DNA of 64,000 bases from Streptomyces sp. WMMC500 (GTDB lineage Bacteria > Actinomycetota > Actinomycetes > Streptomycetales > Streptomycetaceae). Positions within the stretch are counted from its first letter, which is position 1. Every line of letters starts with the position of its first letter. The stretch lies in contig NZ_CP114905.1 of assembly GCF_027497195.1 (NCBI RefSeq), positions 8,550,342 to 8,614,341 of the forward strand, given 5' to 3'. The position numbers and the translations under genes are program-made. The notes under the pieces were generated by a model that searched no databases, had not been told where the DNA came from, and saw nothing but the letters and a program-made list of their open reading frames with translations. Of the stretch, positions 9,001 through 56,630 are shown one piece after another.

Positions 9001-12000
9001 GGATTGGCGTGCGGTGTTCGGTGACGTCCGCGGACGGCGGGTCGGCCTCCCGACGTACGCCTTCCAGCACCGCCGCTACTGGCTGTCCGGCCCCGTCGCC
9101 GCGGGCGATCCGGCGGGCCTGGGCCTGGGTGCCTTCGGGCACGGGTTGTTGGGTGCGGCGGTGACGGTCGCGTCGTCGGGTGCGGTCGTGTTGACCGGTC
9201 GGGTCTCCCGGACCGGTGACGGCTGGCTGACCGGGCACCGCATCCAGGACAGGGTGCTGGTGCCGGGTGCGGCGCTGGTGGAGATGGCGTTGCGGGCCGG
9301 GGACGAGGCGGGCTGCCCCGTCCTCGAAGACCTCACGCTCGAAGCCCCGCTGGAGTTGCCCGAGGCCGGGGGTGTGCAGATCCAGGTCACCGTCGACCCC
9401 GCCGAAGGCGACGGATCGGCCCGTACGGTCAGCGTGCACTCCCGCCCGGACGACGACCCCGAGCGCCCCTTCACCCGCCACGCCACCGGCCGCCTCACCC
9501 CCGCGGACGCGGAGACCGGCGCCGACCGCGGGATGGGGCAGGGCGCGTGGCCGCCGGCGGGCGCCGCGAGCGTGGACCTCACCGACACCTACGAGCGGCT
9601 GGCGAAGCAGGGCTACGACTACGGGCCCGGTTTCCGCGGTCTGACCGCGCTGTGGCAGGAGGGGACGACCCGTTACGCGGAGGTCGTGCTGCCCGAGGAG
9701 CACACCGGCGGGCACGGGCCCGACGCCTTCGGCCTCCACCCCGCCCTCCTCGACGCCGCCCTGCACACTCTCCTCGTCGACAGCGGAGACAAGCCCGACG
9801 CCGGCATCCGCGTGCCTTTCTCCTGGTCGAAGGTCGTGTTGCACGCCACCGGGGCCACCCGGCTGCGCGTCAAGGCCGACACCGCCGGCCCCGACACCGT
9901 CCAGATCACCCTGTACGACACGCAGGGCGCCCTCGTCGCGGAGGTCGGCGAGCTGGCCCTGCGTACCCTGCCCGCGGGCGGCGGGCAGACCGCTATCCCC
10001 GACCACCTCTACGCCCTGCGCTGGACCGCGCAGCAGCTCCCCGCGGCCGGCGCACCGGACCTCGCCGGCTGGGCCACCCTCGGCCCCGCCGACCCCCTCC
10101 CCGGCACCGCCGCCATGCACCACCCGAGCCTGGCCGACCTCCTGACCACCGGCGACCAGCCCACCGCCCTCGTCTACGCCCCCGCCCCCGGCGGCCAAAC
10201 TCCCGCCGCCACCCACCGGGCCGTACACGACCTCCTCACCCTGCTCCAGCACCACCTGACCGAACCCGGCCTCACCGACACCCCCCTCATCCTCCTCACC
10301 CGCCACGCCCAGGCCCTGCCCACCGACGCCGACCCCGCGACCGACCCGGCGCACACCGCGCTGTGGGGCCTGGCCCGCTCCGCGCAGGCCGAGCACCCGG
10401 ACCGTATCCACCTCCTCGACACCGACGACCACCCCGACACCCGCACCCACCTCCCGCACGCACTCGCCCACACCCTGACGAGCGGCACGACCCAACTCGC
10501 CCTCCACCACGGCACCCCCCACACCCCGCACCTCACCCACCTCCGCGACGATCCGCCGCTGACCCCGCCCCCGGGCGCGGACGCCTGGCGGCTGGACACC
10601 GCCACGCCGGGGACCCTGGAGTCCCTGCAACTGCTGCCCGCCACCGAGGCGCTGGAGCCGCTCGCCCCCGGCACGGTCCGGGTGTCCATACGCGCCGCCG
10701 GGCTCAACTTCCGCGACGTGCTCATGGCGCTCGGGATGTATCCGGGCGAGCAGATCATGGGCAGCGAGGGCGCCGGCGTCGTCACGGAGGTGGGCCCCGG
10801 CGTGACGGACCTCGCGCCCGGCGACCGCGTGCTGGGCCTGCTGCCGCACTCCTTCGGCCCGGTCGCGGTCGCCGACCGGCGCATGCTCACCCCCATGCCC
10901 GAGGGCTGGACCTTCGCCCAGGCCGCGGCCGTGCCCGTCGTCTTCCTCACCGCGTACTACGGCCTGCGTGACCTGGGCCGGCTCGCGAAGGGCGACGCGG
11001 TGCTCGTGCACGCCGCCACCGGCGGCGTCGGCATGGCGGCCGTCCAACTGGCGCGGCACTGGGGCGCGGAGGTGTACGCCACCGCCGGCCCGCAGAAGCA
11101 GGGGCTGCTGCGCGAGCTGGGGCTGCCGGCGGAGCGGATCGCCTCCTCGCGCGACCTCGACTTCGTGGAGCGGTTCCGGCGCGCGTCCGGCGGCGCCGGC
11201 ATGGACGTCGTCCTCAACTCGCTGGCACGGGAGTTCGTGGACGCCTCCCTGGGACTGCTCCCCGCGGGCGGGCGGTTCGTGGAAATGGGGAAGACCGACA
11301 TCCGCGACGCCGCCGAGGTCACCCGGAGCCACCCGGGGATCACCTACCGGGCGTTCGACCTGATGGAGGCGGGCCCGGACCGGATCCGCGAGATGCTCGC
11401 CGAGATCGTCGCGCTCTTCGAGGCGGACGTGCTCACCCCGCTGCCGCTGCGCACCTGGGACGTGCGGCGGGCGCCCGAGGCGTACCGCTTCATGAGCCAG
11501 GCGCGGCACGTCGGCAAGATCGTGCTGACCGTGCCCGCACCCGTGGACCCGGCCGGCACGGTGCTGGTCACCGGCGGCACCGGCGCGCTGGGCGCGCAGG
11601 TCGCGCGCCATCTGGCCACCGTCCACGGGGTACGCCACCTGCTGCTGACGAGCCGCCGCGGAATGGACGCGCCGGGAGCCGAGGCGCTACGGGCCGAACT
11701 GGCCCGCCTCGGGGCCGACGCCACCGTCGCGGCATGCGACGTGTCGCGGCGCGAGGACGTCGTACGGCTCCTGGACGGCGTACCGGCGGAGCACCCGCTG
11801 ACCGCCGTCGTCCACGCGGCGGGCGTGACCGCCGACGGCACCGTCGAGACCCTCGACGCCGCGGCCGTCGATCGGGTGCTCGCGCCCAAGGTGGACGCGA
11901 TCGCGCACCTGGACGAGCTGACCCGCGGGCTCGACCTCAGCGCCTTCACGCTCTTCTCGTCCATCGCCGGCACCCTCGGCACGGCCGGACAGGGCAACTA

Positions 12001-12889
12001 CGCCGCCGCCAACGCCTGGCTGGACGGGCTGGCGCAGCGCCGGCAGGCGCTCGGGCTGCCGGCGGTCTCCCTCGCCTGGGGCTACTGGGCCGAGGAGAGC
12101 GAGCTGTCCGGCCACCTCAGCGACGCCGATGTGGCCCGGCTGAGCCGTACGGGCATCCTGCCGCTGGCCACCGCAGAGGGACTGGCCCTGCTGGACCAGG
12201 CCGTTGCGCTGGGCGACGCCGCCGTGGTGCCCGCGCGGCTGAGCACACGCGCCGAGGAAGGCGTGGCGGTGCCGGAGGTGCTCCGGCAGGTCGTCAGGCC
12301 GGCGCGGCGCACGGCCGCGGCGGACGACTCGCCCGCGTCCGGCGGGTCGCCGGTGGAGCTGGCGGGGCTGCCGGCGCCGGAGCGGGCGGAGGCGCTGGTG
12401 AAGCTGGTCCGTACGCACGCCGCCGCGGTGCTCGGGCACGGCTCGGCCAACTCCGTGCCCCGCGAGGCCGCGTTCAAGACCATCGGCTTCGACTCGCTCG
12501 CCGCCGTGGAACTGCGCAACCGGCTCAACGCCGCCACCGGGCTGCGGCTGCCCGCCACAGCCGTCTTCGACAACCCGACCGCCGAGGCGCTTGCCGCGCT
12601 GCTCGACGGGGAACTGCCGGGCGCCCCGGCGGCTGCCGTCCCGTCGGACGAGGCGGGGGCGGGGAGCCTCGGTGAGCTGGAGGGCATGCTGGCCGCGGGC
12701 GCGCTCGACGAGCAGGACCGGGCGAGGCTTGCCAAGCGGCTGAAGGCTCTGGTGTGGCAGCTCGAAGACGTGCGCCCCGCCGGGACCCCGGAGACCGGTC
12801 CCGCGGCCGGCGAGCCCGCCGGTGAACTGGACGTGGTGAGCGACGAGGAGATGTTCGCGATGATCGACCGGGAGCTGGGCCGGGAGTGA
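2..12889 (+). CDS. Modular type I polyketide synthase, 3' part (partial gene)
   Basis: This is the C-terminal part of a modular PKS; the reading frame is open from base 2, so the true start lies upstream. By window position the domains are: partial AT (2-830, GHSIGE), ACP (about 940-1170, serine at 1046); KS (1217-2490, active Cys 1733), AT (2790-3700, Ser 3065), DH (3860-4740), KR (5320-5890), ACP (Ser 6278); KS (6452-7735, Cys 6968), AT (8010-8960, Ser 8294), DH (9110-9990), ER (10580-11540), KR (11560-12130), ACP (Ser 12494). All three ATs carry HAFH, which in this family predicts malonyl-CoA. Both KRs keep the B-type aspartate. In both DHs the usual HxxxG motif reads HRIQD, with an Asp for the Gly. 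There is no thioesterase; residues after 12640 look like a C-terminal docking domain (SDEEMFAMID), so the chain should pass to another protein. Confidence 0.97.
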   Translation, partial: ALFRLLESWGMRPDVVAGHSIGELAAAHVAGVLTLPDACRLVAARGGLMQALPEGGAMLSVRAPAAEVEALLTGPDAFSGLDVAAVNGPAATVVSGDVEAVDRLAAVCAERDWKTRRLRVSHAFHSAHMDGMLAGFAAVAAELDFRPPRIPLVSNLDGREVGADEVCDPGYWVRHVRRTVRFHEGVRSLGAAGVTTLVEIGPDGVLSAMAKDCLPDAVTVPLRRGGTPEAREVLTAVVRAHLHGVAVDWSAVFQGADTGHVDLPTYAFQRERHWLTGERQAPAVTPTDRRDPTGTGVSAAPALAAPAGAGAGAPGTLALVVGEAAGVLGYADASAVEVRRAFRDLGVDSISAVTLRDRLADATGLDLPSSVLFDHPTPERLAAHLHARLTGADDGVATTAVAVDADDPVVVVGMACRYPGGVTSPAELWDMVWSGREGISGFPVDRGWGTDLFDADPGTSGKSYARQGGFLHDAGEFDAEFFGVSPREALAMDPQQRLVLETSWEACERAGIDPDSLRGSRTGVYIGATAQEYGPRLADGHDGHGGHLLTGTTVSVLSGRVAYALGLEGPAVTIDTACSSSLVALHLAAQALRNGECDRALAGGVTVMGSPGMFLEFSRQRGLSPDGRCKAFAEGADGTGWSEGVGLLLVERLSEAQRRGHEVLAVLRGSAVNQDGASNGLTAPNGPSQQRVIQQALATAGLGAGQVDAVEAHGTGTRLGDPIEAQALLATYGRERSAERPLWLGSLKSNIGHTQAAAGVAGVIKMIEAMRRGALPQTLHVDQPTTHVDWDAGAVSLLTEAREWPETGEPRRAAVSSFGISGTNAHVILEEAAEEEQAPAGDPGPGVLPAVPWVVSARSAEALRAQAARLGEFVGEAGGEVSPVDVGVALLSRSTGDYRTVVTGSDTEELRNGLARVAADAFEPSPAATGGVGLLFTGQGAQWPGMGAGLGGFAVFREALEEVCAGFDGLLSRPLDQVLAARDGGLVDRTEFTQPGLFAFEVAMFRQLRAWGVEPTVLVGHSVGELAAAHCAGVWSLADACRLVAARGRLMEALPPGGAMVSLRGSLDEVGALLEGSSQVDVAAVNGPRSVVISGDEGEIEGLVSRWEAGGGRARRLRVSHAFHSPLIEPMLADFQQVAEDVEYHAPGLPLVSNVTGRLADAETVCDPEYWVRHVRQAVRFADGVQSAARTGVSVFMEVGPAPVLTAMGQECLPDEPIQWIALSRAPREGDAESRAVGELMSGVGAAFSAGARVDWRAVFGGVSGRRVALPTYAFQRRRYWLSGSASTGDPAGLGLGVSGHGLLGAAVTVASSGAVVLTGRVSRAGDGWVTGHRIQDRVLVPGAALVEMALRAGDEAGCPVLEDLTLEAPLELPEIGGVQIQVTVDPAEGDASARTVSVHSRPDDDPERPFTRHATGSLIPSTDDEVGEPWQGAWPPAGAEAVDLAGAYGALAEQGYDYGPGFRGLTALWQEGTTRYAEVVLPEEHTGGHGPDAFGLHPALLDAALHTLLVDSGDKPDAGIRVPFSWSKVVLHATGATRLRVKAETSGPDTAEITLFDAEGGPVAEVGELTLRTLSAEPRSTADLYTLRWTAQQRPAAGAPDLAGWATLGPADPLPGTAAMHHPSLADLLTTGHHPTALVYAPAPGDPTPATTHRAVHDLLTLLQHHLAEPRLTDTPLILLTRHAHTAEPDPVHAALWGLARTAQAEYPGRVHLVDTDDHPDTRTNLPGALAHTLASATPQLALHHSTPHTPHLTHLPPQGDAGEAFGRRNGTVLITGGAGALGGLVARHLVAAHGVRHLLLAGRRGIDTPGAAELQEHLRAAGAEATFARCDLTDRDAVARMLAELPDDRPLTAVVHAAGVVSDATIASLTPEALSEVLAPKVDAATHLDELTRDFDLDAFVLFSSVAGVLGTPGQGNYAAANAWLDALAARRRAQGLPGQALAWGLWGDVGGAGGMGAALGEAELARWRRSGIAPLTPELGLASLDAALRTRTPNLIPVRMDLPALRAQAGAGDVPYLLRDFAPRRRTRRVAAGTAAGTTALAARVAGLDAAAQEAELVGLVRTQAALVLGYDDAATIDADQDFKALGFDSLTAVELRNRVNAAADVRLAPTVVFNYPTPAGLARHLRDEVLGAVTAATATTAAAVDADDPVVVVGMACRYPGGVTSPAELWDMVWSGGEGISEFPTDRGWDTDLFDADPGTSGKSYARHGGFLYDAGEFDAEFFGVSPREALAMDPQQRLVLETSWEACERAGIDPDSLRGSRTGVYVGVMYHDYAPRMSTERQEIEGYALTGNLSSVLSGRVAYALGLEGPAMTIDTACSSSLVALHLAAQAMRNGECDRALVGGVTVMATPNTFVEFSRQRGLSPDGRCKAFAEGADGTGWSEGVGLLLVERLSEARRRGHEVLAVLRGSAVNQDGASNGLTAPNGPSQQRVIQQALASAGLSAAQVDAVEGHGTGTRLGDPIEAEALLATYGREHSDERPLWLGSIKSNLGHTQAAAGVAGVIKMVEAMRRGSLPRTLHVDTPSTHVDWDAGAVALLTEAREWPETGEPRRAAVSSFGISGTNAHVILEQPVAEPVRDEPGSVGLPVVPWVVSARSAEGLRAQAARLGEFVGEVGVEVSPVDVGVALLSRSTGDYRAVVVGSDVGELGAGLARVAEGDASPAMSGGGVGLLFTGQGAQWPGMGAGLGGFAVFREALAEVCAGFDGLLSRPLGDVLADTGVDGLIHRTEFTQPGLFAFEVAMFRQLRAWGVEPTVLVGHSVGELAAAHCAGVWSLADACRLVAARGRLMEALPPGGAMVSLRGSLDEIAALLEGSSQVDVAAVNGPRSVVISGDEGEIEGLVSRWEAGGGRARRLRVSHAFHSPLIEPMLADFQRVAEEVEYRRPSLTLVSNVTGEVADAETVCDPGYWVRHVRQAVRFADGVQSAARAGVSTFIEVGPAPVLTAMGQECLPDEPIEWIALSRAPRAEENGAAASRAADVLMSGVGSAHTAGVRVDWRAVFGDVRGRRVGLPTYAFQHRRYWLSGPVAAGDPAGLGLGAFGHGLLGAAVTVASSGAVVLTGRVSRTGDGWLTGHRIQDRVLVPGAALVEMALRAGDEAGCPVLEDLTLEAPLELPEAGGVQIQVTVDPAEGDGSARTVSVHSRPDDDPERPFTRHATGRLTPADAETGADRGMGQGAWPPAGAASVDLTDTYERLAKQGYDYGPGFRGLTALWQEGTTRYAEVVLPEEHTGGHGPDAFGLHPALLDAALHTLLVDSGDKPDAGIRVPFSWSKVVLHATGATRLRVKADTAGPDTVQITLYDTQGALVAEVGELALRTLPAGGGQTAIPDHLYALRWTAQQLPAAGAPDLAGWATLGPADPLPGTAAMHHPSLADLLTTGDQPTALVYAPAPGGQTPAATHRAVHDLLTLLQHHLTEPGLTDTPLILLTRHAQALPTDADPATDPAHTALWGLARSAQAEHPDRIHLLDTDDHPDTRTHLPHALAHTLTSGTTQLALHHGTPHTPHLTHLRDDPPLTPPPGADAWRLDTATPGTLESLQLLPATEALEPLAPGTVRVSIRAAGLNFRDVLMALGMYPGEQIMGSEGAGVVTEVGPGVTDLAPGDRVLGLLPHSFGPVAVADRRMLTPMPEGWTFAQAAAVPVVFLTAYYGLRDLGRLAKGDAVLVHAATGGVGMAAVQLARHWGAEVYATAGPQKQGLLRELGLPAERIASSRDLDFVERFRRASGGAGMDVVLNSLAREFVDASLGLLPAGGRFVEMGKTDIRDAAEVTRSHPGITYRAFDLMEAGPDRIREMLAEIVALFEADVLTPLPLRTWDVRRAPEAYRFMSQARHVGKIVLTVPAPVDPAGTVLVTGGTGALGAQVARHLATVHGVRHLLLTSRRGMDAPGAEALRAELARLGADATVAACDVSRREDVVRLLDGVPAEHPLTAVVHAAGVTADGTVETLDAAAVDRVLAPKVDAIAHLDELTRGLDLSAFTLFSSIAGTLGTAGQGNYAAANAWLDGLAQRRQALGLPAVSLAWGYWAEESELSGHLSDADVARLSRTGILPLATAEGLALLDQAVALGDAAVVPARLSTRAEEGVAVPEVLRQVVRPARRTAAADDSPASGGSPVELAGLPAPERAEALVKLVRTHAAAVLGHGSANSVPREAAFKTIGFDSLAAVELRNRLNAATGLRLPATAVFDNPTAEALAALLDGELPGAPAAAVPSDEAGAGSLGELEGMLAAGALDEQDRARLAKRLKALVWQLEDVRPAGTPETGPAAGEPAGELDVVSDEEMFAMIDRELGRE

Positions 12890-19426: not shown

Positions 19427-22288
19427 GTGTCCGCCCCGCCGATCTCCGCCCGCGAAGCCGAAGTGCTCGCGCTCCTCGGCGAGCACCTGAGCAACGCCGA
19501 GATCGCCGGGCGCCTCTTCATCTCCGTACGCACCGTCGAATCGCACGTCTCCTCGTTGCTGCGCAAGCTGCACCTGCCCGACCGGCGTGCCCTCGCCCGG
19601 CACGCCGCCGCCACCGCCCGCGCCGGCCACGCCGGACCCGCGCCCGCGCTGCCCGCGCCGCTGACGGCGTTCGTCGGCCGCGCGCGCGAGCGCGCCGAAC
19701 TCGCCGCGGCGGTACGGGCCCACCGGCAGGTCACCGCCGTCGGCCCAGGCGGCGTGGGCAAGACGCGGCTCGCGCTCGCGGTGGCCGGCGACCTGGCCGC
19801 CGAGTTCCCCGACGGCGTGTGGTTCGCCGACCTGGTCCCGGTCACCGACCCGGCGCGGGTGGGTGCCGCGGTCGCCGCCGCCGTGGGCGCGGGCGAACAG
19901 CCGGGACGCGACGTGGACGACGCCGCGCTGGGCGCGCTCGCGGACCACGACGCGCTGCTCGTGCTGGACAACTGCGAGCACGTGCGCGACGGAGTCGCAC
20001 CGTTCCTGGAGCGTCTCCTCGCCGCCTGCCCCCGGCTGCGGGTGCTCACCACCAGCCGGGCCCGCCTCCTGGTGCCCTTCGAGCGCGCCTTCCCGGTGCC
20101 CCCGCTGTCCCGCGCCGGCGGCGACGACTCCGACGCCGTGGCCCTGTTCATGGACCGCGCGGCGGCGGTCGGCCCGCTGCCCGGACCGGGCGCGGCCGAA
20201 GGCGTCGTGGCCGTCTGCGAACGGCTCGACGGTATGGCCCTGGCCATCGAGCTGGCCGCCGCCCGCTGGGCGACGCTCGGGCTCGACGGCCTGGCCGCCG
20301 GCCTCGGCGATCAGCTCCGGATCCTCAGCGGCGGCGCCCGCGCCGACGACCGCCACCGCTCGGTGCGTGCCGTGCTCGACTGGAGCCACGACCTGCTGCA
20401 GCCACAGGACCGGGCGCTGCTGCGCCGGATCTCGGTGTTCGTCGCCCCGTTCACGGCCGCTGCGGCGGCCGAGGTCGCCGGGCCCGGACCCGAGGACGTC
20501 TCCGCCGTCGCCGACGGCCTCGGCCGGCTCGCCGAGCAGAGCCTCCTCGGTGTCACCCCGTCCGCGACCGGCACCCGCTACCAGGCGCTGGAGACCATCC
20601 GGCAGTACGGCGCGGAACGGCTCGCCGCCGCCGGCGAGCAGACCGCCGTACGCGCCCGCCACCTCGGCTGGTGCACGACCGCCGCCACCGCGCTGGCCGG
20701 TGCCGGCGGCCCGGACTGGCGCGCCCGGTTCGACGACCTCGCCGAGGACGTGCGGGGCGCGCTCGCCTGGGCCGCCGCCCAGCCGGAGCGGCGCGCGGAC
20801 GCCCACGGGCTCGCCCTCTCGCTGGCCGGGCTGGCGTTCACCCGCAACCTGCTCGGCGAGGCGCAGCAGCGGTACGAGCAGGCCGCCGCGCTCGCCGACG
20901 ACGCGGGCGCCGCCGTCGCGCTGCGGCACGCCGCCGCGGTCGCCGGCTGCCGGCGGCTCGGCGACGACGTGTACCGCCTGCACCGCGCCGCCGCCGGGGC
21001 CGCGGAGCGCGCCGGCGACCGCGCGGGCGCGGGCCGCGACCTCGCCGAGGCCGCCACCGCCGCGTACCGCTTCTCGACCTCCTTCACCCGGCTCCCCGCC
21101 GTCGCCGAGGTCACCGCCCTGCTCGCCCGCGCCCGCGACCTGGCCGGCGACGACCCCCGCGCCGGCGCCGCCGTCGCGCTGGCCGAGGCGGCGGTGGTCA
21201 CCGACGCGTACGGCGCCGTGCAGGGGGGCGCGGACAACGCCGTGGACGAGACGATCGCGCGCGTCGAACGGGCCGTCGAGCTGGCCCGCCGCGCGGCCGA
21301 CCCGGTAGCGGAGTCCGCCGCGCTCGACGCGCTGTCCGGCGCCCTGAGCTGGGCCGGCGACGCCTTCGCCACCGCCGCCGCCACCCGCCGCAGGACCGAG
21401 GCACTGGCGGACCTGCCGCCCACCCCCGCCGCCGTCCACGAGCGGACGGACGCCCTCGCCATGGCCGCGGGAACCGCGGTCGGCGCCGGCGAGCTTGACC
21501 GCGCCCGCCGCCGGGGGAGGGAACTCGCCGAGCACCCGCTGCTCGCCGAGGCCGGCCACCACGCCACCTCCTGGCTGCTCGTCGCCGACGCCTTCGCCGG
21601 CCACGCCGACGAAGCCCTCGCCCACGCCGTACGGTTCCGCGACTCCTTCGAGCACAGCGGCGGGCACCGGTCGCTCTCCCTCGCCGCCGGGGCCGCGTCG
21701 GTGGCCATGATCCACGGGCTGCGCGGCGACGACGACTCCCGCGCGGCCTGGCTCTCCCTCGCCACCCGCGCCGACACCACGCCCGAGCACCGGCACGGCT
21801 ACGGCGCGGTCTTCGACGCCACCGTCCTGCTTCACCGCGGCGAGGCCGGCGCCGCGCTGGAGCGGGTCGCGCCCGAACCCGACGAGGTGTGGAAGTGGGT
21901 GTGCTGGGTCTGGCTGCACTGGTACGTCGCGCTGCGCGCGGAGGCGGCGGTACTCGCCGGCCACCCGGACGCCCGCGCGCGGATCGCCGCGGCCCGCGCC
22001 GTCGTCGCCGGGAACCCGGTCGCGGCCGTCCAGGTGGACCGCGCGGAGGCGCTGCTCGACGGCGACCTTGCGCGGCTGCCGGCGCTCGCGGCGGCGTTCG
22101 CCGCGGCGGGGAGCCCGTACCAGGCGGCGCGCACGCTGCTGCTCGCGGGCGGCGAACACACCGCCGCGGGCGAGGCGGCGCTCGCGGGCCTCGGCCTCGT
22201 ACCGAAGGACCGGCTGCCGCAGGAACTTCCCCCACGGGACCCGCCTCGGAACCCGCCGCCGAAGGCCGCCGGACGACCGCGGGCGTAG
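19427..22288 (+). CDS. LuxR-type regulator fused to NB-ARC ATPase and TPR region
   Basis: About 953 residues. A LuxR helix-turn-helix lies at the N-terminus (ISAREAEVLALLGEHLSNAE, residues about 5-65). It is followed by an AfsR-like NB-ARC ATPase (Walker A GPGGVGKTRLAL, Walker B ALLVLDNCEH) and a long Ala-rich helical TPR-type region to the end. N-terminal LuxR plus NTPase proteins are a known actinomycete group of signal-responsive regulators; the ligand is unknown. The start is uncertain: GTG at 19427 begins just before the HTH, while GTG 19424 and GTG 19391 are also in frame. The end is convergent with the DUF1801 gene, 10 bp away. Confidence 0.88.
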   Translation: MSAPPISAREAEVLALLGEHLSNAEIAGRLFISVRTVESHVSSLLRKLHLPDRRALARHAAATARAGHAGPAPALPAPLTAFVGRARERAELAAAVRAHRQVTAVGPGGVGKTRLALAVAGDLAAEFPDGVWFADLVPVTDPARVGAAVAAAVGAGEQPGRDVDDAALGALADHDALLVLDNCEHVRDGVAPFLERLLAACPRLRVLTTSRARLLVPFERAFPVPPLSRAGGDDSDAVALFMDRAAAVGPLPGPGAAEGVVAVCERLDGMALAIELAAARWATLGLDGLAAGLGDQLRILSGGARADDRHRSVRAVLDWSHDLLQPQDRALLRRISVFVAPFTAAAAAEVAGPGPEDVSAVADGLGRLAEQSLLGVTPSATGTRYQALETIRQYGAERLAAAGEQTAVRARHLGWCTTAATALAGAGGPDWRARFDDLAEDVRGALAWAAAQPERRADAHGLALSLAGLAFTRNLLGEAQQRYEQAAALADDAGAAVALRHAAAVAGCRRLGDDVYRLHRAAAGAAERAGDRAGAGRDLAEAATAAYRFSTSFTRLPAVAEVTALLARARDLAGDDPRAGAAVALAEAAVVTDAYGAVQGGADNAVDETIARVERAVELARRAADPVAESAALDALSGALSWAGDAFATAAATRRRTEALADLPPTPAAVHERTDALAMAAGTAVGAGELDRARRRGRELAEHPLLAEAGHHATSWLLVADAFAGHADEALAHAVRFRDSFEHSGGHRSLSLAAGAASVAMIHGLRGDDDSRAAWLSLATRADTTPEHRHGYGAVFDATVLLHRGEAGAALERVAPEPDEVWKWVCWVWLHWYVALRAEAAVLAGHPDARARIAAARAVVAGNPVAAVQVDRAEALLDGDLARLPALAAAFAAAGSPYQAARTLLLAGGEHTAAGEAALAGLGLVPKDRLPQELPPRDPPRNPPPKAAGRPRA

Positions 22289-35988: not shown

Positions 35989-37077
35989 TCAGCAGGGCAC
36001 GGCCTCCAACGCGGCGAACGGCGGGGGGAGCGGGGTGAGCGCGGCGGGGGCGAAGCCGGCGCGCGTGCAGAGGTGTTCGAGCTCGGCGCGGGTACGGACG
36101 CGCCCGCCGGTGTTGACGAGCATGTTCAGGTCGGACAGGTACGCGCCGGGCGGGACGGTGCCGTTCACGGTCGGCGGGAGGACGGGCTCGACGATCAGCA
36201 GACGGCCGTCGCCGGGCATGACCCGGCGGCACTGCTCCAGGATCGTCACGCAGCGGTCGTCCTCCCAGTCGATGACGACGCTCTTGAGCAGGTAGAGGTC
36301 GCCGCCGGAGGGGACGCCGGCGAAGAAGTCGCCGGCGTGGACGGTGCAGCGGTCGGCCACGTGCTCGCGGGCGAGCGTGGCGGGGGCCTCGGCGACGCCC
36401 TCGGCCGTGTCGAAGAGCATGCCCTGCACCGCGGCGTGCCCGCGCAGGATCGCGGCGAGCAGCGTGCCGTCGCCGCCGCCCACGTCCACGACCGACTTGA
36501 AGCGGCCGAAGTCGTAGGCCGCGGCCAGCCCCGCCGCGGCGACGCTCGTGCCCTGGCTCATCGCCGCGTTGAATTCCGCGGACTTCTCCGGGTTCTGCCT
36601 CAAGTAGGTGAAAGAGTCCACCCCGAAGGCGGCCTCGAACGACGGGGCGCCGCTCCGCACGCTGTCCGACAGGTGTTCCCAGCCGCTGAGCACCACGGGG
36701 TCGGTGAACATCCGCACGAAGGCGGCCATGGAGGCGGTGCCGGACGGCGACCCGGCCCCGCCGTCGCACAGCAGGGCGCCGGCCGGGGCGAGCGCGAAGT
36801 GGTCGGGGGCGGTCTCGGTGAGAAGCTGCAACGAGGCCATGGCGCGCAGCAGTCGGAGCGTGGCCCGGGGGTCGGTGCCGAGGTCCGCGGCGACGTCGGC
36901 CGCCGCCCGGGCCCCGTCGCCTGCGCCGGCCGCCGCGCGGCCGCCGTCGCCGCGGCCGAAGCGGTCCAACACGCCCAGCCGCAGGGCCGTCCCCACCACC
37001 CGCGCGGCCAACTGACCGAAGACCAGCCTGGTCAGGTGGCCCCGGGCAGCGTCGATCTCCTCCTGGCTCGCGGTCAC
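35989..37077 (-). CDS. SAM-dependent O-methyltransferase (small-molecule type)
   Basis: 362 residues of the actinomycete O-methyltransferase family used on polyketides and aromatic compounds. An N-terminal winged-helix dimerisation domain covers about residues 10-110. The Rossmann domain has motif I VVDVGGGDGTLLA, followed by DWEDDRC and IVEPVLPP. I chose GTG 37077 because GGAGGAG lies six bases upstream; GTG 37104 would add nine residues without a good site. It is divergent from the domesticated transposase and probably methylates the product of this locus. Confidence 0.9.
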   Translation of the reverse strand: MTASQEEIDAARGHLTRLVFGQLAARVVGTALRLGVLDRFGRGDGGRAAAGAGDGARAAADVAADLGTDPRATLRLLRAMASLQLLTETAPDHFALAPAGALLCDGGAGSPSGTASMAAFVRMFTDPVVLSGWEHLSDSVRSGAPSFEAAFGVDSFTYLRQNPEKSAEFNAAMSQGTSVAAAGLAAAYDFGRFKSVVDVGGGDGTLLAAILRGHAAVQGMLFDTAEGVAEAPATLAREHVADRCTVHAGDFFAGVPSGGDLYLLKSVVIDWEDDRCVTILEQCRRVMPGDGRLLIVEPVLPPTVNGTVPPGAYLSDLNMLVNTGGRVRTRAELEHLCTRAGFAPAALTPLPPPFAALEAVPC

Positions 37078-37175
37078 CGTGGTCTCCTCCGTCTTCGGCG
37101 TCACCGGACGTTTCTCATTGTCACCCGGGCACCGGTAATCCGCTTAGTACATACACGTTGACAATAATCTGCTCA

Positions 37176-37205
37176 TTGACGATCAAACCGCAAGGAAACT
37201 ATAAA
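37176..37205 (+). promoter_or_regulatory. Sigma-70-like promoter of the transposase-derived gene
   Basis: TTGACG (37176-37181), 18-bp spacer, TATAAA (37200-37205). It lies in an AT-rich patch upstream of the start at 37290. A second -35-like TTGACA is at 37158-37163. Confidence 0.55.
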
Positions 37206-37289
37206 TTGTTCGGCCTCGGGGTCACCTCCTGGGCACTGCCTGCTGAGCCGGTTTTCATCGTGCCGAGAGTGACGAGGAGTGTGCCCGAA

Positions 37290-38531
37290 ATGAGTGAACT
37301 GGGAAATCCGCAACCCGCTAGACGATTAACCGCCGATACGGCTCTTCCGGGTGATCTTCCGCTCGACCTGCTGCACTCTCTATTCGAGTCCTTACCCCGC
37401 GCCGATCAGCGGCGCACCGGCGTCGATTACGTCCTCGGCCTCCTGCACACACCCGGGCGGAAGTCGGCGCGTAACATCGCGACCCTCCTCGGCGGCCGGG
37501 GAGGGGATCAGAGCCTGCACCACTTCATCAACCAGTCGACCTGGGACTGGCGGCCGGTGCGCCGGGCGCTCGCGGCGCACCTGCTGTCGCGCGTCTCCGT
37601 GGCGGCGTGGGTGGTGCGCAGGACGCTGATCCAGAAGGTCGGTGAGCACTCGGTCGGGGTCCACCGCACCTTCGTCCCGGCTGTGGGGCGCGTGCTCAAC
37701 GCCCAGCAGGCCGTCGGCGTGTGGGCCGCCTGCCGGGAGGGGAGCGGCCCCGTCGACTGGGAGCTGCGGCTCCCCCGCGGCTGGCTCGACGACGACCTGC
37801 GCCGCAGACGGGCGTCGATACCCGACAGCGCGGTGCCCGAGACGTACGCGGAGCAGGTCGCCCGGCAGTGCCACGCGGTCGTAGAGGCGTCGGGCCTGCA
37901 CGACCGCCCGGTCGTGCTGGACGCACGGGAGATGAACCTGGGCACGGTCTTCCGCCGGCTCGTCCGTGCGGGCATCCCCGTGCTGGCACGCGTCGACGGG
38001 TCCGTGCCGCTGGTGATCGCGGACCCGGCGCTGACCGGGCACCGCAGCGCGCCCCGCATGACCGCGCGCGAGGCCGTCCGGGCGGCCAAGGGGACGGGAA
38101 GCCCTGCCCGTTGGCGCGACCCCGGCGCGCCCGGGGGAGTACGCGCTGGGCAGTTGGCGAGCGTCGTCGTCAGGCCCGCGGACGGCGTCGGCGAATGGTC
38201 CGGGGAGCTGAGCACCCTGACCCTCATGGGCCTGATCGAGCGCGGCCGGCAGGAGGCGGAGCAGCTGTGGCTGACCGACATCCGCACCGCGCACCCCGCG
38301 TCCCTGCTCGGGCTCTGCGCGCTGCTGGAACGCGTCGAGTACGACTACGCCGCCACCGCGAAGAGCGTCGGCATCGAGGACTACGCCGGCCGGTCGTTCT
38401 GCGGCTGGCACCGCCACATGACCCTCGCGTCGGTGGCCCACGCCGTGTCCCTGCCGTCGACTGCGGTGACAGTTCCTCCTGGCCGGGTGAGCCCTGAGGA
38501 TCAGCGCGCCGTAACCGCTTGCCACACCTGA
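37290..38531 (+). CDS. Domesticated IS701-type transposase-like protein, catalytically degenerate
   Basis: 413 residues aligning end to end with IS701-family DDE transposases: KVGEHSVGVHR, GRVLNAQQAV, VVLDARE, then VEYDY and GRSFCGWHRHMTL. The canonical IDDTGFPKKG is VRRTLIQKVG here, so the first catalytic Asp pair is Arg-Arg; the second Asp and the Glu remain. No inverted repeats are seen around it. Such homologues recur in streptomycete natural-product clusters and may act as DNA-binding regulators. Two in-frame TTA codons (codon 13 at 37326, codon 35 at 37392) suggest bldA control. The ATG at 37290 has GAGGAG ten bases upstream. Confidence 0.85.
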   Translation: MSELGNPQPARRLTADTALPGDLPLDLLHSLFESLPRADQRRTGVDYVLGLLHTPGRKSARNIATLLGGRGGDQSLHHFINQSTWDWRPVRRALAAHLLSRVSVAAWVVRRTLIQKVGEHSVGVHRTFVPAVGRVLNAQQAVGVWAACREGSGPVDWELRLPRGWLDDDLRRRRASIPDSAVPETYAEQVARQCHAVVEASGLHDRPVVLDAREMNLGTVFRRLVRAGIPVLARVDGSVPLVIADPALTGHRSAPRMTAREAVRAAKGTGSPARWRDPGAPGGVRAGQLASVVVRPADGVGEWSGELSTLTLMGLIERGRQEAEQLWLTDIRTAHPASLLGLCALLERVEYDYAATAKSVGIEDYAGRSFCGWHRHMTLASVAHAVSLPSTAVTVPPGRVSPEDQRAVTACHT

Positions 38532-38634: not shown

Positions 38635-39408
38635 ATGGAGGGCAGAGTCGCCCTGGTCACCGGAGCAGCCGGCGGCATCGGCGCGGCCGTCGCCGGCGAG
38701 CTCTGCCGGCGCGGCGTGACCGTGGCCGCGGTGGACTGCGACGCCGGCCGGCTGGCGCGGACGGTGGAGAAGCTGAACGCGGACGGTCTGAGCGCCGAGG
38801 CGTTCTCGGTCGACATCGCCAGCCGGACCCAGGTGGAAGCCGGGGTCGCCGCGGTGGAGGACCGCCTGGGGGAACTGGACTTCCTCGTGAACACCGCCGG
38901 CGTGTTGCGGATGGGCGAGGTCCGGGATCTGACCGACCAGGACTGGGAGACGACGTTCGCTGTGAACGCCACCGGCGTCTTCCTGATGTCGCGCGCCGTC
39001 GCGGCGCGCATGGTGCCGCGACGGCGCGGCTCGATCGTCACCGTGGCCTCGAACGCCGCCAGCACGGCGCGTACGCGCATGGCCGCCTACGCCGCATCGA
39101 AGGCCGCGGCGACGATGTTCACCAAGTGCCTGGGTCTTGAGGTCGCCCGCTACGGGATCCGCTGCAACCTGGTGGCCCCCGGGTCGACGGACACCCCCAT
39201 GCTCGTGGGCATGGGGAACGGCGGCGAGGCCGAGAAGACGAGCATCATCGACGGCATCCCGGCGGACTACAAGGTGGGCATCCCGCTGCGGAAGCTGGCC
39301 CGGCCCTCGGACGTCGCCGACGCCGTCGTCTTCCTGCTCTCCGACCGCGCGGGACACATCACCATGCAGAGCCTCACCGTCGACGGCGGCGCCACCCTGG
39401 GCGGTTAG
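38635..39408 (+). CDS. EntA/DhbA-like short-chain dehydrogenase
   Basis: 257 residues of a classical SDR: TGAAGGIG cofactor motif, NTAGV, and the catalytic S/Y/K in VASNAAS...YAASK. The C-terminus (IPLRKLARPSDVADAV, AGHITMQSLTVDGGATLGG) is that of 2,3-dihydro-2,3-dihydroxybenzoate dehydrogenases, which aromatise a cyclohexadiene diol. No isochorismate synthase or isochorismatase is in view, so the ring substrate may come from elsewhere or differ. It is the first gene of a seven-gene plus-strand operon. Confidence 0.88.
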   Translation: MEGRVALVTGAAGGIGAAVAGELCRRGVTVAAVDCDAGRLARTVEKLNADGLSAEAFSVDIASRTQVEAGVAAVEDRLGELDFLVNTAGVLRMGEVRDLTDQDWETTFAVNATGVFLMSRAVAARMVPRRRGSIVTVASNAASTARTRMAAYAASKAAATMFTKCLGLEVARYGIRCNLVAPGSTDTPMLVGMGNGGEAEKTSIIDGIPADYKVGIPLRKLARPSDVADAVVFLLSDRAGHITMQSLTVDGGATLGG

Positions 39409-51261: not shown

Positions 51262-52487
51262 AACCTGCCGGGCGCGAAGCGGAGATCGGCGGAATCATCA
51301 CCCGCTGGTCTCCGCTGGGGGCAGTTCTGCCTCCTTCCCGAGCCGAGGTCGGCACATTGCTCGGGACTCGCTGGACGGTCGGCGCCCGCGACGCTTTTCG
51401 GGGAGGAAGTATTGCGACGGCCTTGGCCCGATGCTCTTCACGCCGCCTGCGGTGTGACTGTGCATGACCGTGCTCTTCCCAGTGGTGCCCGTCTCCGCCC
51501 TCACCCTGATCTGTCACACGGGAATGGCTTATCCCGAGGTACTGAACGATGGCGCCCGCTTCCAAGGGTGGCCATCCGTCCCATTCGACGACAAGCCCGG
51601 CCTGACGGCGACCGCCGGAAAGCGGTTCGGACGGTCGTGGACATTCACTGCCCGCCGGAGCACTTTCGTGTCGCCGGCCCGTTGCTGTCGTGCCCGTCGC
51701 CTGGACGCGCGGTTGACCCCGGCCACTTGCACCCGGGGTTTGTCTGGTTCGGGTGTGGGTGTGGGATATGAGTGCCGCAGGGGTGCGCGTGATAGGTGAG
51801 TGGAGTTTGTCCGCGCGACTCGGCCCGTGTGACGGTGCCGAGCACGATGGTGTGGTCGCCTCCGCGGACGAGTTCATCGACCGTGCAGGTGACCCAGGCG
51901 GTGGCTTCGGTGATGTGGGGGAGTCCGTCCTGCCGTTGTCGGGCGGCGGTGATGAAATTCGCGGGTCTCTTGAAGGCGAAGGTTGGAGCGAACGTGGATT
52001 GCGCTCGGTGTCTCCTTGTCGCGCCACGTCGAGAGCCGGGTTTCGGCTGCTCGTCGTAGGCGAGGGGTGCGGTGCCGCGGATTTCGCCCCCGAGTTGCAC
52101 CCTCATCGCCGCGTGGCAGTAGGTGAAGCTGATGCCCGCGCCCGCTCCTCCGGGGCGTGCGGCCGGTGGACCGTGCGCCGTCGTACGCGGCTCGCGCGCC
52201 CGCGCTGCGGTGACTCGGTGTCCGGTGTGGCGCGCCCCTTGGCCCTGATCCACGGCTTGTCGGCTGTCGTCTGTGGTGGGCAGCTTGTGGCACGTGAGGT
52301 TCGTGGTTCTGCCTGTGTGGTGGTTTGCCCGCTGGGGTTGCGGGTGTGTGGTGGTCGCCAAGTGGGCGCCAAGTCGTTGGTGTGTGGTGGCCAAGTGGGG
52401 TTGTGGATGCTGTGTGGTTGTTGGCTGTGGGTGTGTGTGGTTTGTTCGGGTTGTTGGGTTTGTGTGGGTGTGTGGTTGGAGGGTGTT
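51262..52487. other. Gene-poor interval before the SARP gene
   Basis: About 1.2 kb with only one coding relic (51780-51995, minus). From about 52250 the plus strand becomes strongly G+T rich with short TGTGG-type repeats. No complete gene can be supported. Confidence 0.5.
51780..51995 (-). pseudogene. Flavin-reductase-domain relic
   Basis: On the minus strand an in-frame segment reads like the C-terminal half of a flavin reductase (HpaC/NmoB type): GLPHITEATAWVTC, then GGDHTIVLGTV and TPLTYHAHP. The N-terminal FMN-binding half cannot be found in any frame, and the flanks lose coding character. It is probably a truncated remnant of an oxygenase partner gene. Confidence 0.45.
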
Positions 52488-53309
52488 GTGGAGATTCGGG
52501 TTTTGGGTCCGTTGTGTGGTGTGGTGAATGGGGGGTCGGTTGTTCCGTCGGCGGGTAAGCCGCGGCAGGTGTTTGCGTTGTTGGCTTTGTATCCGGGGCG
52601 GGTTTTGCCGGTGTCGATGTTGATGGAGGAGGTGTGGCGGGCTGAGTTGCCGCCGAGTGCGATGACGACGTTGCAGACTTATATTATGCAGTTGCGGCGT
52701 TGTTTGGGTGGTGCGTTGGGGGCTGGGGGGTCGGAGCGGGCGAAGGGTGTGTTGGCTACGCGGCATGGTGGTTATGTGTTGCAGGTGCCGCGGGAGTCGG
52801 TGGATGTGTTTGCGTATGAGCGGTTGGTGGGGGAGGGTCAGGAGGCTTTTGAGCGGGGGGAGGATGAGCGGGCGGCGCGGTGTTTTCGGCAGGCTTTGGG
52901 TTTGTGGCAGGGGCCGGCGTTGGTGGATGTTCGGTTGGGGCCGGTGATGGAGATTGAGGTGATGCGGTTGGAGGAGTCGCGTTTGGTGACGGTGGAGCGG
53001 CGGATTGATGCGGATTTGCGGCTTGGTCGTCATGGGGAGTTGATTGCGGAGTTGGCTGATTTGATTGCGCGGCATCCGCAGCATGAGGGTTTGCATGCGC
53101 AGGCGATGTTGTCGTTGTATCGGTCGGGTCGGCAGGCGTCGGCGTTGGATGTGTATCGGCGGTTGCGGGCGCGGTTGATTGAGGAGTTGGGTGTGGAGCC
53201 GTCGCCGCCGTTGCAGCGTTTGCATCAGGCGATGTTGGCGGTGGATCCGGAGTTGGATGTGGTGGCGGGTCCGCGGCGTGGTTCGACGTTCGACCGGTAC
53301 GCGGCGTAG
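52488..53309 (+). CDS. SARP-family transcriptional activator
   Basis: 273 residues: an OmpR-type winged helix (about 1-95: VEIRVLGPL, GKPRQVFALLAL, TLQTYIMQLRR) followed by the bacterial transcriptional activation domain (about 100-250, ending LGVEPSPPLQRLHQAML). Streptomyces antibiotic regulatory proteins of this size (ActII-ORF4, RedD) activate nearby clusters, so this may serve the isoprenoid genes to the right or a cluster beyond. GTG 52488 follows GGAGGG. Codon use is odd: leucine is mostly TTG and third positions are G or T, unlike other genes here. The stop is directly followed by an 8-bp tandem array. Confidence 0.92.
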   Translation: MEIRVLGPLCGVVNGGSVVPSAGKPRQVFALLALYPGRVLPVSMLMEEVWRAELPPSAMTTLQTYIMQLRRCLGGALGAGGSERAKGVLATRHGGYVLQVPRESVDVFAYERLVGEGQEAFERGEDERAARCFRQALGLWQGPALVDVRLGPVMEIEVMRLEESRLVTVERRIDADLRLGRHGELIAELADLIARHPQHEGLHAQAMLSLYRSGRQASALDVYRRLRARLIEELGVEPSPPLQRLHQAMLAVDPELDVVAGPRRGSTFDRYAA

Positions 53310-55238: not shown

Positions 55239-55754
55239 ATGCCGTCGATGCGGGCGGTTTTGGAAACGCGGCGGAAGGCCGCGGCCGCGGAGGTGAAGCA
55301 GCTCGAAGCCGAGTTGGAACGGGTGCGGGCGGCTCTGGCGGAGGCGGAAGAGGTGCACTGGTGCCGGGTGATCGGCCTGGAGCAGTATCTGGAGGCGCTG
55401 GCTGAGGAGGACGTGCCTGCCGACGTGGTCGGTGAGGGGTCGCGGAGGAAGCCGGTCGGTCCACGCCGGGCGGTGCCTCACCGGCGACAGGCGAGTGAAG
55501 TGGAGGAGTTGTCGCCGGACTATCAGGCGTTGATGGCTGCTGCGGCCGATGCGGGAGACGACGGGCTCGGTGCCCGGCGGGCGGCGGTGGTGCTGGGCTG
55601 GGACAGCGCGTCGGCCTCCCGTGTCGAGGGAGCCAGAGCACGGCTGAAGCGGCTGGTGGAACGAGGCTGGCTGGTCGAGAAGAAGGCGGGCAGATTCACG
55701 CTGCCCGCATCGGAGCAGGACCCTGGTGCCGGGCGGCCAGGCGGCGGCTCGTGA
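55239..55754 (+). CDS. Hypothetical coiled-coil protein with winged-helix-like C-terminus
   Basis: 171 residues. The N-terminal half is a charged coiled coil (AEVKQLEAELERVRAALAEA). The C-terminal half (GARRAAVVLGWDSASASRVE, GARARLKRLVERGWLVEK) looks like a winged helix. I do not recognise a named family. GGAGGTGG lies upstream of ATG 55239; ATG 55248 is an alternative. Its 3' end overlaps the convergent transposase gene by 59 bp, so it may have been truncated by, or carried with, the insertion sequence. Confidence 0.65.
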   Translation: MPSMRAVLETRRKAAAAEVKQLEAELERVRAALAEAEEVHWCRVIGLEQYLEALAEEDVPADVVGEGSRRKPVGPRRAVPHRRQASEVEELSPDYQALMAAAADAGDDGLGARRAAVVLGWDSASASRVEGARARLKRLVERGWLVEKKAGRFTLPASEQDPGAGRPGGGS

Positions 55755-56502
55755 GCATGGACATCGACCACAGAATGACGGCTTCGCTGGTGTCGGTGCG
55801 CCGCTCGTAGTCACGGACCAGACGCCGGCTGCGCAGGCACCAGGCGAACGACCGTTCCACGACCCAGCGGCGGGGCAGGGCCTTAAAGCCGCGGGCGGTG
55901 TCGCTGCGGCGGACGATGTCGAGTGCGATGCCGAGCTGTGTTGCACTCCAGTCGACGAGGTGGCCGGTGTAGCCGCCGTCGGCCCAGACCCGTGCCAGCC
56001 GCCCGAAGCGGTCCTGGGCCGCCGGCAGCAGAACGCGGGCGGCGTCCCGGTCGGTGGTCGACGCAGGCGTGACCAGCACCGCCAGCAGTAGCCCGAGCGT
56101 GTCGGTGAGCAGGTGCCGCTTGCGCCCGTTGACCTTCTTCCCGGCGTCGAAGCCGCGAGAGGTGAGAGCGACGGTGGCGTCCGCCTTCACCGACTGCGAG
56201 TCGATGACCCCCGCACTGGGCTCACGTTCACGTCCCTCGGCCTCGCGGGCAGCCTCACGCAGCCGGTCGTGCAACTCGGCCACGAGTCCCCCATCCCGCC
56301 AGCGGGCGAAGAAGGCGTAGACCCGAGGCCAGGGCGGGAAGTCCGACGGCATCGCCCGCCACTTGATGCCGTTGTCGACGAGGTAGCGGATCGCGTCGAG
56401 CATCTGTCGGTGACAGTAGCCCTCCGGCCGCCCGCCCCGGCCCGCCAGCCACCCGGGAACCGGCAGCAGATCCCGCACCAGAGCCCACTCGGCATCGCTC
56501 AT
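55696..56502 (-). mobile_element. IS5-family DDE transposase
   Basis: 268 residues, apparently intact. The N-terminal MSDAEWALVRDLLP and PPWPRVYAFFARW are typical of streptomycete IS5 transposases. The DDE triad is seen in VIDSQSVKAD (D), VWADGGYTG (D) and RWVVERSFAW (E). Terminal inverted repeats could not be delimited. Codon use is normal, unlike the G/T-skewed DNA on both sides. Confidence 0.92.
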
Positions 56503-56630
56503 GTCCGAGCCGTACCGCGGCCGGCGACCCGGCCGGTCGGCCGCATTCCCGAACCTGTGGGCGAGACAGTCACACCCAGGAGTGGACCAACTGGACCCGA
56601 CAACCGTGACCACGCGACACTTCGACAACA

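Follow-up and report, generated by a model that had tools for sequence, protein, structure and literature searches.

SgcR3, a regulator required for C-1027 production, is described by Wang et al. (2009; PMC2657911) as a protein of 395 amino acids (aa) that is 33% identical to TylR across its whole length. According to the same paper, disruption of sgcR3 abolishes C-1027 and its overexpression raises production, and the purified protein binds the promoter of the regulatory genes sgcR1R2, one of eight fragments tested, with the other seven remaining unbound. The TylR/SgcR3 type of regulator is already known as a class; the point that appears to be new is its identity as a catalytically dead lineage of IS701 transposases, whose members are widely annotated as transposases. 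Here we analyse a gene of this kind in a stretch of 64,000 nucleotides (nt) from Streptomyces sp. WMMC500 (positions 8,550,342 to 8,614,341 of contig NZ_CP114905.1; 'the window', from whose first letter positions are counted). The gene at 37290–38531 encodes a 413-aa protein, which is very probably a TylR/SgcR3-type pathway-specific transcriptional activator that descends from a dead IS701 lineage with the Tn5 fold and whose translation is gated by bldA. The gene, its ribosome-binding site and the positions of the catalytic residues are as follows (loci, proteins and genomes of the comparison sets carry L, P and G numbers).

37290–38531, + strand: gene for a dead IS701-type protein of the TylR/SgcR3 type, 413 aa (translation, profile matches, pairwise identity)
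37274–37279, + strand: ribosome-binding site GAGGAG, 10 nt upstream of the ATG (read directly)
37617–37622, + strand: codons R110-R111, site of the first catalytic Asp (alignment to canonical IS701)
37920–37922, + strand: codon D211, second catalytic Asp, retained (same alignment)
38385–38387, + strand: codon A366, site of the catalytic Glu (same alignment)

An earlier, sequence-only reading of the window had described a full-length IS701-type protein with a good ribosome site, and both descriptions hold: the protein (P0001) matches the NCBIfam IS701 transposase model NF033540 with 276 bits (cut-off 150) and Pfam DDE_5 with 138 bits. Its predicted structure is a Tn5-transposase fold including the N-terminal domain, with the model aligning to Tn5 transposase starting at residue 20; a sequence search of the Protein Data Bank (PDB) gave five chance matches alone, every one with E > 0.2. 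The catalytic triad, by contrast, is not that of an active enzyme. In 21 canonical Streptomyces IS701 proteins the first and the second Asp are present throughout (21/21 each) and the third site is Glu in 12 and Gln in nine, whereas the window protein has R110, D211 and A366, i.e. two of the three catalytic residues are replaced. The Arg-Arg that the sequence-only reading had seen in place of the first catalytic Asp-Asp is R110-R111 in this alignment, and the loss of the Glu comes in addition.

This alignment contains 208 non-identical family proteins, drawn from search hits and loci (the window protein included; 41–80% identical to it), as well as the 21 canonical proteins, which remain of 30 loci after L051 and L059 were taken out for internal stop codons and seven others gave no tblastn match to P0001. 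Not one of the 208 has Asp at the first site (Arg in 150, Gln in 38, His in 15, others in five); 206 retain the second Asp, and just three have Glu at the third site (Ala 97, Ser 41, Val 37, Thr 30). A second sample of 60 loci, picked down the listing of a genus-wide search, provided 61 proteins, with L213 yielding none longer than 250 aa. Seventeen of these share 98% identity or more with members of the set of 208, and three of the loci repeat a named locus, leaving 44 further proteins and 57 further loci. The 44 proteins again lack the first Asp without exception but keep the second Asp in 32 and the Glu in 25 cases. Since the first Asp is absent from all 208 and all 44 relatives, whereas more than half of the latter still have the Glu, an early loss of the first Asp seems to have been followed by a later loss of the Glu. 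Close homologues with an intact Asp-Asp-Glu (DDE) triad, which the sequence-only reading had named as speaking against its proposal, were looked for and not found (0/208 and 0/44). Arg-Arg itself is no conserved family signature, R111 occurring in just eight of the 208; what the family has in common is the absence of Asp at position 110.

One could imagine that the gene is a recently inactivated IS701 copy stranded in a gene cluster, with its TTA codons and lost residues being signs of decay. The NCBI equivalog model does call the protein a transposase, this model finds matches in 57 of the 61 Streptomyces genomes searched, and locus L140 carries, beside its family gene, an edge-cut open reading frame (ORF) that keeps the first Asp, groups with the canonical proteins and resembles a genuine IS701 gene. 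Recent decay is contradicted, however, by the loss of the first Asp in 252 of 252 relatives together with the ratio of nonsynonymous to synonymous substitutions (dN/dS), which is 0.08–0.31 in ten pairs, with 0.28 and 0.31 for comparisons of the window gene to its relatives in Actinacidiphila, and shows that purifying selection acts on the gene. Gene order around it is conserved with Actinacidiphila, and the source genome holds a single full-length homologue, the two other matches being partial (32% and 30% identity), so that the dispersed near-identical copies typical of IS701 are missing there. Among the pairs found by a repeat search none brackets the gene, in agreement with the earlier statement that inverted repeats are not visible. 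A stranded copy is therefore extremely unlikely. Even less probable, to the point of being negligible, is that the protein still moves DNA through an unusual active site: retention of D211, conserved in nearly the entire family, would be in line with this, but two of the three catalytic residues are replaced, no ends were found and identical dispersed copies do not occur in the genome. Among the family matches listed, genomes have one to few dissimilar genes, and two identical pairs were noticed, both in G107 and located at mirrored ends of the chromosome, whereas canonical IS701 genes are frequently present in multiple copies with equal score per genome (e.g. at seven places in G010).

The link to a characterised regulator comes from a plasmid search, which found family members in S. 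sp. Mg1, adjoining a like-ordered cassette with ScbA and ScbR, and on SGLP1 of S. globisporus C-1027, where the gene is annotated 'transposase' and lies upstream of enediyne polyketide synthase (PKS) genes. The sgcR3 primers printed in the primer information of PMC2657911 match the C-1027 locus (L230) exactly at 19665–20131, i.e. over the printed length of 467 bp, and this stretch includes the beginning of the gene for the 395-aa 'transposase' (20034–21221); the sgcR1R2 primers given there match at 37807–38261, again with the printed length (455 bp). Because the published primers match its gene exactly, the 395-aa 'transposase' of C-1027 is SgcR3. SgcR3 (P0241) scores 313 bits on NF033540 (cut-off 150; window protein 276), and therefore a characterised regulator goes by the name of transposase in public annotation. 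It resembles the window protein over its full length (33% identity over 372 aa), in having lost the first catalytic Asp (Ser) while keeping the second, in being encoded inside a biosynthetic cluster and in having a TTA codon. It differs in having kept the Glu (DFEGRSF), in its single TTA deep in the gene (codon 104) rather than two at the start, and in belonging to an enediyne cluster, where it targets the sgcR1R2 regulator promoter. A protein of the spiramycin producer S. spiramyceticus (P0310), named 'TylR-like regulatory protein' in UniRef, is 39% identical to the window protein over 382 aa and has likewise lost the first Asp (Trp) but kept the Glu. AcyB2 and Srm40 presumably belong to the same class, an assumption we make on indirect grounds. 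In a 53-row tree, the 41 family rows, which include SgcR3 and the TylR-like protein, are split from 12 canonical IS701 proteins on one branch with 100% support in the Shimodaira–Hasegawa-like approximate likelihood ratio test (SH-aLRT). The canonical Streptomyces proteins share with the window protein the NCBIfam profile, a similar length and the order of conserved motifs, but differ in their intact catalytic residues and frequent multi-copy occurrence. Overall, domestication as a DNA-binding regulator, as proposed from the sequence alone, is strongly supported by the universal loss of the first Asp and by a homologue, SgcR3, that binds DNA.

A dead transposase could also be a transposition inhibitor that poisons active IS701 transposases in the manner of the Tn5 inhibitor. 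The Tn5 inhibitor lacks the N-terminal domain and aligns only from residue 86 of our model onward, whereas the window protein keeps this domain, which is even better conserved in the family than in canonical IS701 proteins (0.78 versus 0.60). Identity is 13% to the Tn5 proteins (PDB 1mus, 1b7e) and just 26–34%, in aligned stretches, to the canonical IS701 proteins that would have to be poisoned, and the gene context is biosynthetic and regulatory, all of which makes an inhibitor very improbable.

This context was determined for families of genes within 10 kb at 81 loci, i.e. the window plus 80 loci from named genomes (the best 80 of 212 relatives in one scan, some of them near-copies), with neighbour families defined as single-linkage clusters and their representatives identified with NCBIfam and Pfam. 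The most frequent neighbours are a synthase similar to 2-amino-2-deoxyisochorismate (ADIC) and anthranilate synthases (41 loci), a PucR-type regulator (40), class II 3-deoxy-D-arabino-heptulosonate 7-phosphate (DAHP) synthase (34) and an AMP ligase (34); ScbR is found at 13 loci, and ScbA and Streptomyces antibiotic regulatory proteins (SARPs) at nine each. A DhbA-type dehydrogenase occurs at 32 loci by a loose and at 24 by a strict count (23 of the 80 plus the window), with the loose DhbA and the AMP-ligase counts including look-alikes. We call the synthase 'ADIC-type' on account of its two domains and its neighbours, which suggest this activity, while its scores lie below the NCBIfam cut-offs. 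Of ADIC-type synthase, DAHP synthase and strict DhbA, at least one is present at 44 and at least two at 39 of the 80 loci. Because isochorismatase accompanies the synthase at 33 loci (33 of the 80, every one with the synthase, and thus 33 of 41 synthase loci), the known route towards 3-hydroxyanthranilate looks largely complete there. Among the 57 further loci, 26 have one or more of the three aryl-acid genes, 31 have PucR and 19 have SARP (one or more aryl-acid genes in the second sample: loose 29/60, strict 27/60 and 26/57). In a control smaller than the family samples, 20 canonical IS701 loci carry none of the biosynthetic and regulatory neighbours searched. According to record titles, the family is present in at least six actinobacterial families.

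So strong a linkage to ADIC-type synthase, DAHP synthase and DhbA would also be expected if the dead transposase had been reused for a non-regulatory job, for instance as an enzyme or scaffold, in a building-block route of the 3-hydroxyanthranilate type. This route, however, exists without the family protein, with isochorismatase being there at most synthase loci, by which a replacement of isochorismatase by the family protein in the ADIC route is ruled out as well. Moreover, other family members adjoin enediyne-type or other type I PKS genes, and SgcR3 binds DNA, so that we regard a non-regulatory job as quite improbable.

The gene next to the family gene is a convergent PucR regulator gene at 34 of the 81 loci, a same-strand DAHP synthase gene at ten, a dehydrogenase gene of cluster 5 at five and a divergent DAHP synthase gene at three. 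At 18 loci (e.g. L076, L078, L080–L083, L094, L095 and L098–L100) the convergent family gene and PucR/GAF-type regulator gene have 3' ends that overlap by roughly a dozen nt; this pair is a conserved two-regulator module. Tandem pairs of family genes occur at L088, L090, L093, L096, L103, L112, L122 and L123 as well as at L191, mostly loci with gamma-butyrolactone-type ScbR/ScbA. The first genes of the eight pairs form their own clade in a 113-row tree, at L191 the upstream one of the two genes groups with SgcR3 in the 53-row tree, and a mixed dimer of such paralogues is conceivable. A transaldolase gene lies near the family gene at 16 of the 81 loci (e.g. L110), frequently accompanied by genes for DAHP synthase and ADIC-type synthase, where it perhaps serves erythrose 4-phosphate supply.

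Control by bldA via TTA codons is known in Streptomyces, and the window gene has the two TTA codons that the sequence-only reading had located:

37326–37328, + strand: TTA codon 13; aligned TTA also in L072, L073, L074 and L075
37392–37394, + strand: TTA codon 35; common to L070

In L071 the TTA is codon 170. At the level of the family, TTA is found in 44 of 139 genes versus 18 of 190 surrounding enzyme genes (p 7e-7, not corrected for kinship), with the TTA of L073 falling outside the 44 owing to a conservative choice of start. Relative to Leu codons, TTA makes up 27 of 599 within the first 35 codons versus 30 of 5339 later on (p 5e-13, again uncorrected for kinship). Neighbouring regulator genes for PucR (18/44), ScbA (6/9) and SARP (5/9) are at least as rich in TTA-bearing members as the family, which is not true of ScbR (3/22). 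Five of the 21 canonical IS701 genes have TTA too, and therefore TTA alone is no marker of regulators. The TTA pattern fits bldA control, and these codon statistics point to a TTA gate on translation; the double bldA dependence asserted earlier thereby gains indirect backing from the family-wide concentration near the start. In a deep branch (L217, L219, L222, L224, L225, L226 and L227), all seven genes have TTA at codon 29, and none of the neighbour families searched is found at those loci.

Upstream of the gene, one element stands out:

37158–37185, + strand: conserved block TTGACA...TTGACGATCA, also present in L070 and L071; candidate promoter or operator

This 28-nt block, which carries both TTGACA and TTGACG, has been conserved in the two closest relatives compared, both Actinacidiphila, and may be a promoter or an operator. 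Of the promoter-like sequence claimed earlier it is this block that stands, whereas a consensus scan revealed no sigma-70-like site on the + strand. A second good match to the block was not found in the window, L070 or L071.

The window gene lies in the final 64 kb of the 8.6-Mb contig, in a biosynthetic cluster with other regulators. Close by are genes for DhbA, an AMP ligase, a monooxygenase, beta-ketoacyl-ACP synthase III (KAS III) and NAT, and farther away a type I PKS (32–12889) and a SARP. An ordinary IS4/IS5-type DDE transposase gene is located at 55696–56628 (− strand), near the chromosome end. Three genes of the window are possible targets:

35989–37104, − strand: divergent O-methyltransferase gene
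38635–39408, + strand: DhbA-type dehydrogenase gene, 104 nt downstream of the gene, possible target operon (TIGR04316, 339 bits, cut-off 300)
51753–53309, + strand: SARP regulator gene, possible target by analogy with SgcR3

For a TylR/SgcR3-type activator, the following scenario is the most likely one. The common ancestor of the class, an IS701 transposase, would have lost the first catalytic Asp and, on the branch of the window gene, later also the Glu, while the N-terminal domain and the RNase H-like core were retained. The retained transposase DNA-binding surface would allow binding to one or few promoters in its own cluster and thus activation of further regulators or operons, with translation waiting for the bldA leucyl-tRNA owing to the TTA codons near the start. 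Since the target of SgcR3 is a regulator promoter, the SARP promoter is the best first guess, followed by the promoter of the divergent methyltransferase gene and by the DhbA operon as putative targets.

Several points weigh against this interpretation. DNA binding and regulation are those of SgcR3, from which they are predicted for the window protein by analogy, and the comparison within the class covers SgcR3 and one TylR-like protein, not TylR, AcyB2 or Srm40 themselves. As both of these proteins keep the Glu, its loss in the window protein is an extra step. A comparison of the sgcR1R2 promoter with the window's upstream block found no common operator; the fragment bound by SgcR3 has weak short repeats only and nothing recognisably in common with the block. 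The TTA counts depend on the chosen start codons and ignore kinship. A cruder 113-row FastTree likewise sets the 21 canonical rows apart on one side, although support is just 89 and two odd ORFs lie beside them, the edge-cut ORF of L140 and the upstream ORF of L145, which is SgcR3-like by motif (L094 and L143 each contribute to this tree an additional ORF that lacks the motifs and is probably spurious). Twelve of the 57 further loci are without any of the eleven neighbour families searched, so that some members lie outside any recognisable cluster. Finally, the window cluster has neither the ADIC-type synthase nor the isochorismatase that many relatives have close by. Genes for both are present elsewhere in the source genome, with two ADIC-synthase-like loci distant from the window (G000:C1:876076-878579 and 7123368-7125404), one of them with an adjoining isochorismatase gene, and the DhbA-type gene of the window could draw on these.

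A more far-reaching idea, which we put forward tentatively and consider rather doubtful as a whole, is that the TylR/SgcR3 class arose once from IS701 and acts as a frozen transpososome, i.e. a dimer that would pair two end-like promoter sites and remodel or bridge DNA without cutting, that tandem paralogues in some clusters pair as a mixed dimer, and that most of the many hundred 'IS701 transposases' of this clade are regulators. As to family size, three protein searches report 596, 945 and 181 overlapping matches. In the open-access literature we found no paper that joins IS701 or transposases with TylR/SgcR3-type regulators, which is no proof of novelty with the subscription literature lying mostly outside this search.

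Thus, the members of an already studied class of antibiotic regulators appear to be domesticated jumping-gene enzymes that are still called transposases in databases. If so, the origin and fold of classic but mechanistically obscure activators such as TylR and SgcR3 would be accounted for together with a model of their DNA binding, and the class would provide a bacterial example of domestication that turned a DDE transposase into a transcription factor. Many 'IS701 family transposase' annotations would turn into usable cluster regulators and handles for waking silent clusters, and genes of this family could serve as markers of clusters for chorismate-derived aryl acids of the 3-hydroxyanthranilate type, macrolides and enediynes.
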